DNA of 48,338 nt, taken from a virus. A program made the position numbers and the translations under genes. Below are positions 18,216 through 44,364 of this stretch, piece after piece; positions within the stretch are counted from its first letter, which is position 1; each line of letters begins with the position of its first letter. The stretch is taken from positions 1-48,338 of IMG/VR virus record IMGVR_UViG_3300020215_000063. One strand, written 5' to 3'. Below the pieces are notes generated by a model that saw nothing but the letters and a program-made list of their open reading frames with translations, had not been told where the DNA came from and did not search any database.

Positions 18216-18254
18216 GGGAAAGGGGGGAATGAATGGAGGGGAACCCTCTCGATC

Positions 18255-18284
18255 CTCCCCCCAACGCCGTGCGGCGTGGGGGAG
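18255..18284. terminator. Strong intercistronic hairpin
   Basis: Nested arms ACGCC/GGCGT (loop GTGC) and CTCCCCC/GGGGGAG with a 2-base bulge. It lies between two minus-strand head genes and has no T tract in that direction. It could be an RNA-processing or stability element that keeps capsid mRNA abundant. Confidence 0.5.
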
Positions 18285-18297
18285 AGTGTCGAAGGGG

Positions 18298-29811: not shown

Positions 29812-29885
29812 TGGTGTGGGCGACGAGAATCGAACTCGCGTCACCGGTTCCACATACCGGGGTCCTGCCACTGAACGACACCCAC
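29812..29885 (-). tRNA. tRNA-His (GTG), CCA encoded
   Basis: Complete cloverleaf: acceptor GTGGGTG/CGCCCAC, D stem GTTC/GGAC, anticodon stem CCGGT/ACCGG with loop ATGTGGA (GTG), T loop TTCGATT. The 3' CCA is encoded. A G precedes the first base, as needed for the extra G of tRNA-His, but base 73 is A rather than the usual C. It lies at the head of the minus-strand run, between the two divergent gene blocks. Confidence 0.9.
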
Positions 29886-32064: not shown

Positions 32065-32107
32065 TGCGAGATTAACTCAAGAGGTTCACAATATTCCTGT
32101 TTTGACC

Positions 32108-32602
32108 ATGAAGACTATTCCGCTTTCCCAGGGGCGATACACGATTGTCGATGATGATGACTTCGACTACCTTTCTCAGTTCCGATGGCACGTCGTCAGG
32201 TACGGTTACGGAAAGCATGAATACGCAGCTCGTAACAGCCGAACCGATGGCAAGCTCCGGATCGTTCGCATGCACCGGGAATTAATGCAACCGCCCGAGG
32301 GGATGTGGGTGGATCACATCAACGGGGATGGCCTGGACAATCGGCGTTGCAACCTTCGCCTTTGCACGCCGCATCAAAACACAATGAACCGCCGACCAAG
32401 CTACAACAGGTTCAAGGGAGTCCAGCACGTTTCCTACCGACACAAGGAGTCCTTTATAGCTATCATTCAAGAGAGCGGCAGGGTACACCACATCGGCTCC
32501 TTCAAGACGCCTGAGGAGGCTGCGATGGCATACGATAAAGCCGCTCTCCGCTACCACGGTGAATATGCCTGCCTGAATTTCCCACCCGTCGCACGAAATT
32601 GA
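32108..32602 (+). CDS. HNH endonuclease with AP2-like domain
   Basis: 164 residues. HNH block: MHRELMQPPEGMWVDHINGDGLDNRRCNLRLCT, then a DNA-binding AP2/ERF-like domain (YRHKESFIAIIQESGRVHHIGSFKTPEEAAMAYDKAA). This pairing is typical of phage homing endonucleases. A second, diverged copy lies at 37.97-38.4 kb on the other strand. No interrupted gene or intron is visible around it, so it is free-standing. Confidence 0.85.
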   Translation: MKTIPLSQGRYTIVDDDDFDYLSQFRWHVVRYGYGKHEYAARNSRTDGKLRIVRMHRELMQPPEGMWVDHINGDGLDNRRCNLRLCTPHQNTMNRRPSYNRFKGVQHVSYRHKESFIAIIQESGRVHHIGSFKTPEEAAMAYDKAALRYHGEYACLNFPPVARN

Positions 32603-32663
32603 CTGCGGATCGGGAGAGGTTCAGAATCCGGGCAGTTTTGGAGACCGCTTTTTCCCGCTCAGG

Positions 32664-32750
32664 ACCCCTAACGCAGCCCACCGTGTTGCAAGCTCCCTCC
32701 ACGGAGGGGTGATGCCGAAGAATAAGGCATACGGTCGGGCTCTTGGGGGT
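32664..32750 (+). ncRNA. Tandem structured RNA, unit A
   Basis: Four stems: P1 ACCCC/GGGGT at the ends, P2 AGCCCACCGT (32675-32684) with ACGGTcGGGCT (32731-32741, one bulged C), P3 CCCTC-CACG-GAGGG, P4 ATGCC-9nt-GGCAT. Linkers TAACGCA, GCAAG, GATGCCG, ATACGG and TCTTGGGGG recur in unit B. There is no open frame with a start. The strand is inferred from a U-G pair in unit B. I could not assign it to a known RNA class. Confidence 0.6.
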
Positions 32751-32806
32751 GCTTGCCTGCCGTGGTACGATCCGGGTGGCATTAGTGCACGAGTGCCGTC
32801 ATAGAA

Positions 32807-32891
32807 GCCCCTAACGCAATCGCGTCGCAAGAACATCCCTCACGGGATGCCGCCCAAATACCCAATACGGCGAGGACGGGGTTCTTGGGGG
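32807..32891 (+). ncRNA. Tandem structured RNA, unit B
   Basis: Same plan as unit A, 57 bp downstream: P1 CCCC/GGGG; P2 AATCGCGTC (32818-32826) with GACGGGGTT (32875-32883), eight of nine paired including one U-G; P3 CATCCC-TCAC-GGGATG; P4 GCCG/CGGC. P2, P3 and P4 differ in sequence from unit A but keep pairing, which is compensatory change. The five linkers are kept. This supports selection on RNA structure. Confidence 0.6.
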
Positions 32892-32904
32892 AATCTGGTA
32901 AGAG

Positions 32905-32934
32905 TTGACACCCCTGCGCGTCTTGGTTGATAGT
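32905..32934 (+). promoter_or_regulatory. Promoter of the small RNA
   Basis: Consensus -35 TTGACA, 18-bp spacer, -10 GATAGT. Predicted start near 32939-32941, where the first hairpin begins. The hexamer GTTGAC that overlaps the -35 also occurs at other promoters here. Confidence 0.6.
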
Positions 32935-32938
32935 GTCG

Positions 32939-33030
32939 CCTTTCCCGGCTCCGCAGAGATGCCAGTGCCGGAAAGGAGCAACTACTGCGGGGGCGCGGTA
33001 GTCAACCCGGTGCGGGCGTGCCGGGTTTTT
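32939..33030 (+). ncRNA. Small RNA gene with three hairpins and terminator
   Basis: About 92 nt with its own promoter. Hairpin 1: CCTTTCcCGGC/GCCGGAAAGG, 10 bp with one bulge. Hairpin 2: ACTACTGCG-GGGG-CGCGGTAGT, 9 bp with a GGGG loop. Hairpin 3: AACCCGG/CCGGGTT followed by a T tract (33026-33030), a standard intrinsic terminator. No open frame. The purine run GGAAAGGAG is complementary to the C/T-rich leaders of many phage genes, but part of it is in stem 1. Function unknown. Confidence 0.65.
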
Positions 33031-37968: not shown

Positions 37969-38415
37969 TCAGAACGTTTCTTGTCGATGGAACTCGCCTC
38001 GAAGCAACCTTGCTGCCGCCTCGTATGCGGCCTTAGCGTCTTCGCGCCTTCCAAAAATCCCGAGGTACTTGGACTTCCCTCCGTGTCGGATCACAGCTCG
38101 CCACTTCCGATTCGCCGACTCCCATTTTGTACCTGTCCATTTCCCCTTGCGTCTGTTCCAGGCATTTTCCGAGGGCGTACAAAGCCGCAAGTTCCTTGAG
38201 CGGTTGTCCTTTTTGTCGCCGTTTCTGTGGTCCACGTAGAACGGCTCGCAGGGCTCCATTATCATGCGATGGAGATAAACCGTTTTCCCATCCGGCCCCC
38301 GTCTGCATACATATCCCGTCACTTTGTTCTCGGCCCATCCAAACTCCTTCGCCCACCAGTAGTCCTCGTCATCGACGATTGTCGTTCCACCGTTGAGCAA
38401 GTAGATGGTTGCCAT
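37969..38415 (-). CDS. HNH endonuclease with AP2-like domain, copy 2
   Basis: 148 residues from MATIYLLNGG. HNH block: YLHRMIMEPCEPFYVDHRNGDKKDNRSRNLRLCT, and AP2-like SANRKWRAVIRHGGKSKYLGIF with REDAKAAYEAAARLL. Shares the order and motif spacing of the 32.1-kb copy. An upstream start (20 residues longer) is open but overlaps an opposing promoter. Probably a mobile homing gene inserted between terminator and promoter. Confidence 0.85.
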   Translation of the reverse strand: MATIYLLNGGTTIVDDEDYWWAKEFGWAENKVTGYVCRRGPDGKTVYLHRMIMEPCEPFYVDHRNGDKKDNRSRNLRLCTPSENAWNRRKGKWTGTKWESANRKWRAVIRHGGKSKYLGIFGRREDAKAAYEAAARLLRGEFHRQETF

Positions 38416-38432
38416 CGCCCGCATGATGCCCC

Positions 38433-38461
38433 TTGCGTACCGTGTTCGCAACCTGTACTTT
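38433..38461 (+). promoter_or_regulatory. Promoter, leaderless gene
   Basis: -35 TTGCGT, 17-bp spacer, -10 TACTTT. The -10 ends 7 nt before the ATG of the next gene. Confidence 0.65.
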
Positions 38462-38468
38462 TCTCGCC

Positions 38469-38663
38469 ATGTCACACACCCCGATTCCCCAGTGGGCCAA
38501 AGCCCGCAAGATGAGCCGTAGGAAAGCTGAGTACATAGCCAAAAACTACCCGGAATACGTGGTCCTCAAACCGAAAAAGATAGTCCGCACCGTCTTCGTG
38601 AAATGTCTAGACGACTCAGCCCCGATTGAGTTGCGCGGAAAGGACGCAGAGAGTAGTCTGTAG
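38469..38663 (+). CDS. Small basic protein
   Basis: 64 residues: MSHTPIPQWAKARKMSRRKAEYIAKNYPEYVV, then beta strands (KKIVRTVFVKCLDDSAPIELRG). Start fixed by the promoter 7 nt upstream. Possibly nucleic-acid binding by charge. Confidence 0.6.
   Translation: MSHTPIPQWAKARKMSRRKAEYIAKNYPEYVVLKPKKIVRTVFVKCLDDSAPIELRGKDAESSL
38631..38659 (+). promoter_or_regulatory. Promoter of 38.7-kb operon
   Basis: -35 TTGCGC, 17-bp spacer, -10 TAGTCT, inside the end of the previous gene. Leads into the leader ACATTCCCCCATCCAC. Confidence 0.6.
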
Positions 38664-41889: not shown

Positions 41890-42142
41890 GATACGGTTCG
41901 ATACGGTAAGGGTGGAAAATCGAGGCATCGAACCGTATCATGGACGGTAACGGTGACCCCAAAAGTCATCCGTTTAGCCTGAAAACACGCAAAAGGGCAG
42001 TTAGCTCAGTTGGTAGAGCGAGCGACTGAAAATCGCTAGGTCGCCGGTTCAACCCCGGCTCTGCCCACTCTAGAAAACAAGGGGTTTTAAGCGAACCCCG
42101 ACCAGTCCAGAGCCCGCGTGATACGGTAAACGGATACGGTAA
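41890..42142. other. attP region with repeated arm-type sites
   Basis: The motif GATACGGTAA or GATACGGTTC appears at 41890, 41900 and inverted at 41930-41939 on the left of tRNA-Phe, with a weaker copy at 41942, and twice on the right at 42120 and 42133. The left copies form a perfect 13-bp inverted repeat (GATACGGTTCGAT/ATCGAACCGTATC, 41890-41902 and 41927-41939). Such repeats flanking a tRNA core are what lambda-type integrases bind at attP. Confidence 0.7.
41995..42067 (+). tRNA. tRNA-Phe (GAA), attP core
   Basis: Cloverleaf: acceptor GGGCAGT/TCTGCCC with a mismatch at the innermost pair (7:66), D stem GCTC/GAGC, anticodon stem AGCGA/TCGCT with loop CTGAAAA, T stem GCCGG/CCGGC. No encoded CCA (unlike tRNA-His). 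It sits between the arm-site repeats and 132 bp before the integrase gene, so it likely serves as the integration core and can restore the host tRNA gene on insertion. Confidence 0.9.
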
Positions 42143-42198: not shown

Positions 42199-43515
42199 GT
42201 GCACCCCTTGGGAGTCCGAACCGTGAAAAATCCTGCTCCGTGGTACTGGGAAAACCGGAACTGCTGGGCCGTCGTCATCGACGGCAAGCGGCACGTCCTG
42301 GGCGAGCATCCGTCCGATGCCCCGCCGCCCCGCAAGAAGAACAACAAGTGGGTCGTCCCGAAGGCCATCCAGGATCGCTATGACGATCTGAAGATGGAAC
42401 TCCGGGGCAAGCCCGTGGTCCCCTCCCCGCACGCCCCGAAGGCCGTGGTCACGGTCGGGGACGTGTTCGAGAAGTTCCTGGAGTGGTGCCAGGGCAACCG
42501 CTCCGAGCGGACCTACGAGTGGTCCCGCAACCACATCCAGTCCTTCGTCAACGCGCTCAAGGCCCGCGGCGAGCCCGCCGGGAAACTCCCCGCCACCGAC
42601 CTGAAGCCGTTCCACGTCTCCGAGTGGGTGGACGAGAACCGCAAGAAGCGGCCCGGCAAGCGGGCCTGGGGGCCGAACCACTCCCGCGGGGCGATCACCG
42701 CGGTGAAGCGTGCCTACGCCTGGGCGGTCAACGAGGGCCACATCGACCGCAACCCCATCCGCGGGGTCAAAAAGCCCCCGGCCAAACGCCGGGAACAGGT
42801 GCTGACCCGCGGGGAGTTCGACCACCTGCTCTCCCAGGTGAAGGACGCGGCATTCCGCGACGTCCTCGAATTCTGCTGGGAGACCGGCTGCCGGGTGCAG
42901 GAGGTCCGGGTCCTCGAAGCCGAGCACTACAAGGCCGACCGCGGCCGGTTCGAGCTGCCCCCGACGCAGGCCAAGGGCAAGAAGCGGTGGCGGCTGATTT
43001 ACCTCACGCCGCGGGCCGAGGAGATCGTCCGGCCGCTCGTCCTCCGGCACCCCGAAGGCCCGGTCTTCCGGAACACCGACGGCAACCCGTGGGACGCCCA
43101 GAACTTCAACTGCCGCTTCTTCCGCCTCCAGCGGCGGCTCGGCCGCGAGGCCCTGGGCGGCGTCGAGCCGGACCCCGAGCTGGTCACGGCCCTGGCGAAG
43201 ACGCTCCCGAGGACGACGCGGGAGAAGGGCGTGGTGCGGCCGAAGACGGAGAAGGAGCTGCTCCGCGAGGCCCGCAAGAAGCTGTCCGGGGACATCGCCG
43301 CGAAGGCCGGGACGAAGTTCGCCCTCACGGCCATCCGCCACTCGTTCGCCACCCGCCTGCTGGAGAGCGGCTGCGACCACGTCACGGTCGCGATGTTGAT
43401 GGGCCACGTAGACGCCGTAATGCTGGCCCGGGTCTATTCCCACGTCGGCGAGCGGACCGACTTCCTCCGGGAAGCCCTGCTCAAAATTGCAGGTGCTTCG
43501 GCTTCGGCGGCGTAG
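42199..43515 (+). CDS. int: Tyrosine integrase
   Basis: 438 residues, GTG start with GAGGG 7 nt upstream. N-terminal arm-binding region, SAM-like core-binding domain at ~85-190 (VGDVFEKFLEWCQGN), and the catalytic domain with R232 (TGCRVQEV), R380 and H381 (AIRHSFAT), H403 (MGHVDAV) and nucleophile Y413 (ARVYSHV). The first His of the usual HxxR box is Thr377, a tolerated variant. Inserts the circular genome at a tRNA-Phe site. Confidence 0.93.
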   Translation: MHPLGVRTVKNPAPWYWENRNCWAVVIDGKRHVLGEHPSDAPPPRKKNNKWVVPKAIQDRYDDLKMELRGKPVVPSPHAPKAVVTVGDVFEKFLEWCQGNRSERTYEWSRNHIQSFVNALKARGEPAGKLPATDLKPFHVSEWVDENRKKRPGKRAWGPNHSRGAITAVKRAYAWAVNEGHIDRNPIRGVKKPPAKRREQVLTRGEFDHLLSQVKDAAFRDVLEFCWETGCRVQEVRVLEAEHYKADRGRFELPPTQAKGKKRWRLIYLTPRAEEIVRPLVLRHPEGPVFRNTDGNPWDAQNFNCRFFRLQRRLGREALGGVEPDPELVTALAKTLPRTTREKGVVRPKTEKELLREARKKLSGDIAAKAGTKFALTAIRHSFATRLLESGCDHVTVAMLMGHVDAVMLARVYSHVGERTDFLREALLKIAGASASAA

Positions 43516-43726: not shown

Positions 43727-44364
43727 GGGAGCCTCAGCAGCAGGTAGAACGCTCGGGCGGTTTCCTTGACCTCTTTGACAAGTCCGGACAGCGGGTGCGG
43801 CGCTCGTGGGCGCTTCGGTGCCCACCGTGGCCGCTGCGGGGGAGCTGGCTTCGCCCAGAAGGCCGACACGCGCGTCCACCACCACTGGTCCACGTCAAGC
43901 TGGTACACCCCTAAGTACCAAGTGATCTGGTTCACGAGCGCCGGGTCCGCGTCGTCCCAGCGGCCTTTCTCCGTCCAGGACCAGAGCCAGATACAGAAGG
44001 CTTCTGCGAACCGGCCGGTCTCGAACAGCCAATCGGCGTACTCCAGCACCAGAGGCTCGTTCCACCGCTCGCTGTACAGGACGGGCAGGACAACATCGTC
44101 GTGCATGGAACGCTTCGGCCGGGGGAGGAACCGCTTCCTCCACTCCTCGGGCACGGTCCCGGCCCGATGGATGCGGATCATCTCGAACAGGAGGTCGAGG
44201 CGGCGCTTCTCCTCGTCCTCCCGCTGCACCGCGACGAACAGCCGGAGCCACCGCGCCTTCTCTTCCTCGTGGTGCTCGTCGAGCCAGTCGGCCAGCACCA
44301 GCTTCGGGGTGTCGTCCTGGGGGTGGGCCAGGCACGTCAGTTCCAGGGCTTCGCGATCATCCAT
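43723..44364 (-). CDS. TIGR02996-domain protein
   Basis: 213 residues. Residues 1-45 (REALELTCLAHPQDDTPKLVLADWLDEH) match the TIGR02996 repeat-companion domain, a family expanded in Gemmata and related planctomycetes and of unknown function. The rest is helical with many Trp. AAGGAG lies 7 nt before the start. The best single clue to the host. Confidence 0.75.
   Translation of the reverse strand: MDDREALELTCLAHPQDDTPKLVLADWLDEHHEEEKARWLRLFVAVQREDEEKRRLDLLFEMIRIHRAGTVPEEWRKRFLPRPKRSMHDDVVLPVLYSERWNEPLVLEYADWLFETGRFAEAFCIWLWSWTEKGRWDDADPALVNQITWYLGVYQLDVDQWWWTRVSAFWAKPAPPQRPRWAPKRPRAPHPLSGLVKEVKETARAFYLLLRLP

Follow-up and report, generated by a model that had tools for sequence, protein, structure and literature searches.

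Two related units of 87 and 86 nt are present in tandem on the plus strand of the phage record IMGVR_UViG_3300020215_000063. They form a duplicated element with a shared predicted fold that matches no known family, and which is probably RNA. The best explanation, and on balance a probable one, is that the two copies (A and B) are paralogous plus-strand RNA elements that would be bound at their closing helix or three-way junction and would act in cis in the transcript on the HNH side, a mechanism put forward here as an unproven proposal. The window analysed is the entire record (48,338 bases, 62.6% G+C).

The phage record and the two units

The phage encodes a terminase with a Terminase_3 domain, tail-fibre and peptidase-domain proteins, an integrase-family protein, an HTH regulator, a lysozyme-like protein, a prim-pol and two HNH genes. 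One phage protein contains a Gemmata-type repeat, TIGR02996 (rpt_mate_G_obs; nt 44227–44358). This repeat family is named after Gemmata, and it hints that the host is probably a Gemmata-like planctomycete, which backs the guess made in the first-pass annotation. By terminase, the closest relative is a 42-kb contig in IMG/VR (58% identity), followed by phages of freshwater springs at 48% identity or less, in some of which P22-like portal and coat proteins are annotated. The two HNH genes (nt 32102–32602 and 37969–38475) are related to each other, and both match one HNH pair in the relative IMGVR_UViG_3300032104_000038. A tRNA-Phe gene (nt 41995–42068) adjoins the integrase-family gene (nt 42199–43515), a possible attachment site, and a tRNA-His gene is found on the minus strand at nt 29812–29885.

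Unit A (87 nt; nt 32664–32750, +) and unit B (86 nt; nt 32807–32892, +) are located in a non-coding region (nt 32603–33030) between the first HNH gene (+) and an ORF starting at nt 33029. Structured units had previously been proposed for nt 32664–32891 and are indeed present there, with all five of the shared words claimed for them found in both A and B. Two of these words, CCCCTAACGCA and TCTTGGGGG, lie at the ends of the units and are common to both exactly, in the same order and at similar spacing, while the other three are short words situated between them. The 11-mer and 9-mer end words occur as a pair at matching spacing once in the window (nt 32665/32808), and in none of 300 dinucleotide shuffles. 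The spacing from A to B is 143 nt. A covariance model built from B alone recovers A at 29.6 bits (E 3e-5 in the 48-kb window), and a model of A alone recovers B at 22.6 bits (E 0.0034). Searches with A- and B-derived models, on both strands and with filters off, gave no further copies in the window, all other matches scoring 15 bits or less. On this sequence evidence, A and B are a duplicated element consisting of homologous units. The top background match of the covariance models is a very strong hairpin between structural genes (nt 18254–18285), which is stable on both strands (z −3.1) and is perhaps a bidirectional terminator.

The divergence between the two copies is uneven. Their end words are identical at all 20 positions, whereas the middle has diverged strongly but retains its pairing, and the duplication does not reach the flanks. 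Both observations argue against a relic of tandem duplication that has no present function, to which only a small chance is given here, even though homologues were not found where searched and B folds only moderately.

The region is non-coding. The only ORF of more than 80 aa across it is on the minus strand (94 aa), with a codon usage of −0.54 bits/codon vs +0.57 for a confident phage gene, and the remaining ORFs across A and B are short.

Predicted fold, strand and covariation

Pairing was read from the computed pair probabilities of A and B. The two units have a common predicted fold, in which a bulged closing helix (P1) is followed by P2 and then by a three-way junction that contains GCAAG and carries two hairpins, P3 and P4. 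The closing helix is invariant (CCCCUAA-c-G-c-A paired with U-C-UUGGGGG): a CCCCUAA/UUGGGGG segment with one U·G pair is followed by a bulged C, a G–C pair, a second bulged C and an A–U pair. Pair probabilities in this helix are 0.95–1.0 in A and B, with about 0.7 for the G–C pair. In A, the 5′ side is ACCCCUAA-c-G-c-A (nt 32664–32675, with the bulged C residues at nt 32672 and 32674) and the 3′ side, also evident directly from the sequence, is UCUUGGGGGU (nt 32741–32750); the corresponding strands of B, CCCCUAACGCA (nt 32808–32818) and UCUUGGGGG (nt 32883–32891), are identical to those of A. The outer words, which the first-pass annotation had taken to be linkers, are therefore not linkers but are paired together as the closing helix.

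The strands of P2 are as originally described in both units. In A, AGCCCACCGU (nt 32675–32684) is predicted to pair with ACGGUcGGGCU (nt 32731–32741), and in B AAUCGCGUC (nt 32818–32826) pairs with GACGGGGUU (nt 32875–32883) with one G·G mismatch. The conserved GCAAG of the three-way junction is at nt 32688–32692 in A and nt 32827–32831 in B, by direct sequence and, for B, also by pair probabilities. Hairpin P3 is CCCUC CACG GAGGG in A (nt 32695–32708) and CAUCCC UCAC GGGAUG in B (nt 32834–32849), and hairpin P4 is formed by AUGCC ... GGCAU in A (nt 32712–32730) and by CGCC ... GGCG in B (nt 32851–32872). The P3 hairpins correspond roughly, and the P3/P4 register is not strictly equal between the units. 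GATGCCG forms P4 in A, whereas in B its GAUG sits in P3 and its CG starts P4; ATACGG is within P2 in A and partly within P4 in B. As these two words differ in role, the P4 hairpins of A and B are not strictly equivalent. The proposal that the stems differ in sequence yet keep their pairing is thus borne out for P2 in both units, but not for P4 as a strictly equivalent stem.

On the plus strand, the fold z-scores were −3.4 for A and −2.2 for B, and on the minus strand −1.3 and −1.5. Among 403 windows of this genome, the fold value of A was reached by 0.7% and that of B by 4%, so that A stands out in the genome and B does not. With the shared words held fixed and the variable stretches shuffled, the fraction folding at least as well was 0.008/0.001 for A and 0.05/0.03 for B. 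The predicted fold shared by A and B is independently supported.

Covariation was counted on a model-guided alignment of the two sequences (n = 2), fitted to the structure of B. This alignment has 26 pairs, with 96% of the structural cells paired, and sliding the 3′ side by 1–3 columns lowers the paired cells to 45–57%. Three of the 26 pairs are changed on both sides and another three on one side, and 74 of 500 column shuffles equal the observed covariation. Given two sequences, an alignment fitted to B and this number of equally good shuffles, covariation is unprovable from A and B and is suggestive only. Of the covariation inside one genome that had been reported earlier, the kept pairing stands, but the compensatory changes are few. 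Selection for RNA shape, the conclusion then drawn, is still the best reading, albeit one made from two sequences, a third homologue not having been found in the searches.

The plus-strand z-scores exceed those of the minus strand, and a U·G wobble is conserved in both copies, with a second U·G in B; on the opposite strand these would be A·C. When folded as DNA, the common fold is kept for A and is lost for B on either strand. Taken with the non-coding nature of the region, these data favour an RNA read from the plus strand, which is also the strand of the HNH gene upstream and of the next genes, and we infer that A and B are transcribed from it. The same data weigh against an element acting at the DNA level, i.e. 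a site of recombination or replication in folded single-stranded form (attC-like or a hairpin att) or a palindromic insertion, and such an element is given little probability. The long imperfect inverted repeats with extrahelical bases would suit it, as would the integrase-family gene, although the latter is 9 kb distant. Resemblance to integron attC extends to the imperfect hairpin with extrahelical bases and to a CTAAC box, the 5′ box CCCTAAC agreeing with RYYYAAC at 6 of 7 positions, but the 3′ box is CTTGGGG, without the GTT of GTTRRRY, and the inner P2 arms and three-way junction are not attC-like. A and B were rejected as attC on the 3′ box.

Comparison with known families

A search of the whole window against Rfam at gathering thresholds returned two tRNAs only, and Rfam 15 at E ≤ 10 gave no family for the A/B region, so the earlier remark that the class is not a recognised one holds. 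Searched singly, the units gave fragments of 8.7 and 12.6 bits, which are at chance level and far under threshold. The Rfam ribozymes (twister, twister-sister, hammerhead, HDV, pistol, hatchet) and Y RNA showed no match. There is no tRNA in A or B, ARAGORN and Rfam placing tRNAs at nt 29812 and 41995 only, and neither unit has a cloverleaf with a T arm.

Bacterial Y RNAs (YrlA or Deinococcus Y RNA) have a long end-to-end stem with a bulged C. A and B similarly have a long stem formed from both ends with a bulged C, but are without a tRNA-like module. The Ro/TROVE protein (PF05731) is absent from the phage record, in a search in which one control genome was positive; the host could supply it. 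Twister-sister ribozymes share with A and B the GCAAG word and a G-rich closing strand, but in A and B GCAAG is in the junction and not in the P4 terminal loop. The first-pass annotation was right to discount this class. In twister ribozymes the first P1 strand is followed at once by UAAC, the 3′ strand of P1 is rich in G and there is loop-to-loop complementarity, all of which recur in A and B. The order of twister elements is P1-L1-P2-L2-P4-L4, with two pseudoknots from hairpin loop L4 to L1 and L2 (PMC6154101). A and B differ in element order, have no L4 double pseudoknot, and carry GCAAG in the junction before P3 rather than in a hairpin loop; with this different nested fold, they were rejected as twister.

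It is very improbable that A and B are two self-cleaving ribozymes whose class is new or strongly diverged. This reading would be in keeping with the tandem layout and with the invariant internal segments UAACGC, GCAAG and CUUGG within helical scaffolds, and an active site might possibly be formed from UAAC, which follows the first strand of the helix, together with a pseudoknot between the CAAG of GCAAG and CUUG at nt 32742–32745, which are complementary in A. However, the Rfam ribozymes were unmatched at E ≤ 10, the helix alone fully accounts for the invariant end strands, and the nested UAA/UUG pairing is better than free CAAG and CUUG by about 5.5 kcal/mol, a cost that leaves the pseudoknot's own pairs uncounted. 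As both of its words are invariant, the CAAG/CUUG pseudoknot offers no covariation. A separate complementarity exists in A between the junction GCAAGC (nt 32688–32693) and GCUUGC (nt 32751–32756) directly 3′ of the unit, which is perfect; B has no counterpart of GCUUGC at that place.

Relatives of the units were also sought beyond Rfam. The model of B gave at best 17.2 bits against 1.8 Mb of other viral DNA (195 of the viral loci retrieved). Some of the IMG/VR pattern scans were without matches, and the matches elsewhere (62, 45 and at least 120 stretches, screened by sequence and structure) were judged to be coding or chance. The best among the IMG/VR matches listed, with a P1 of 6 bp and a P2 of 4 bp, was rejected as it runs from the end of one ORF into the beginning of the following one. 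BLAST against GenBank phages and plasmids gave nothing useful, and scans of genome contigs detected no relative. The unit was not found in the record with the 58% identical terminase, in HNH-carrying contigs or in five related GenBank phages, and since it is missing from the HNH contigs and related phages, this HNH family is not generally accompanied by the RNA. As far as tested, A and B are an orphan within the IMG/VR patterns, phages, plasmids and related records searched.

Transcriptional setting and proposed role

A sigma70-like promoter, TTGACA-18-GATAGT (nt 32905–32934, +; 10 of 12 matches), is located just 3′ of B and outside the units, and further downstream is an intrinsic terminator (nt 33004–33027, +) indicated by terminator scan and fold. 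The promoter is also followed by a structured RNA of ~90 nt with two predicted hairpins (z −2.65). In the loop region of hairpin 1, CUCCGCAG (nt 32949–32956) can pair with CUGCGGGG (nt 32986–32993) of hairpin 2, as an 8-bp pseudoknot or switch. From its predicted structure, the block at nt 32905–33030 resembles either an sRNA in its own right or an attenuating leader belonging to the ORF that starts at nt 33029.

No promoter above 9/12 was detected by the scan directly upstream of A, where there is a weak promoter-like site (nt 32599–32627), and the scan gave neither a terminator after A or B nor a promoter of B's own. These results count against two separately transcribed small trans-acting RNAs, or a single transcript that offers a host RNA-binding protein two decoy sites. 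Either arrangement is unlikely, though the 143-nt spacing, the weak site before A and the clear promoter–terminator sRNA-like unit next door lend it some weight.

The put RNAs of phage HK022 act in protein-independent antitermination via the beta' zinc-binding domain. They are ~70 nt long and have two stem-loops forming a V, putL and putR being similar (PMC9378689). In common with putL and putR, A and B would be small RNAs that a phage carries in duplicate, alike in sequence and with bulged stems, on phage transcripts ahead of terminators (PMC9378689). By analogy, the nascent RNA might bind the elongating polymerase and let it pass the terminator at nt 33004–33027. The presence of two copies in the phage, a size similar to put, and a sense-strand location with a strong intrinsic terminator and plus-strand genes further downstream would all agree with such RNA-only antitermination. 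It is nevertheless very unlikely, as put RNAs have two stem-loops and occur as one copy per early operon, one for each early transcript, whereas A and B are tandem closed three-way junctions on one strand, and the phage is not evidently without other antiterminators. As HK022 put RNA itself they were rejected, the predicted fold being a three-way junction and not a V of two stem-loops.

Under the preferred explanation, A and B would be paralogues, two copies of a single structured RNA element read from the plus strand. A protein or RNA polymerase would bind its invariant bulged helix, its GCAAG junction or both, and P2–P4 would need only shape and not sequence. A binding element fits because the ends are constrained in sequence and the middle in shape, and we infer both the binding partner and an effect on the transcript. 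The role would be cis-acting in the HNH-side transcript (binding, processing, stability or read-through). Such a cis role is likeliest, rather than one in coding or at the DNA level, because the units share the strand of the HNH gene and precede the promoter and intrinsic terminator. It is quite unlikely that planctomycete phages have a new class of functional RNA of which A and B would be the first two representatives; such a class might be, for instance, an RNA-only antiterminator that binds the polymerase, or a new self-cleaving ribozyme, with the invariant bulged helix and GCAAG junction as the active or binding site. The two units are not yet evidence of a new mechanism.

If real and transcribed, A and B would represent a family of structured phage RNAs that Rfam does not include, from phages whose hosts belong to a poorly studied group, and the two diverged copies in one genome would constitute a natural compensatory pair. 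The element would then become a candidate either for control of phage transcription by RNA alone or for a new RNA motif that binds protein.
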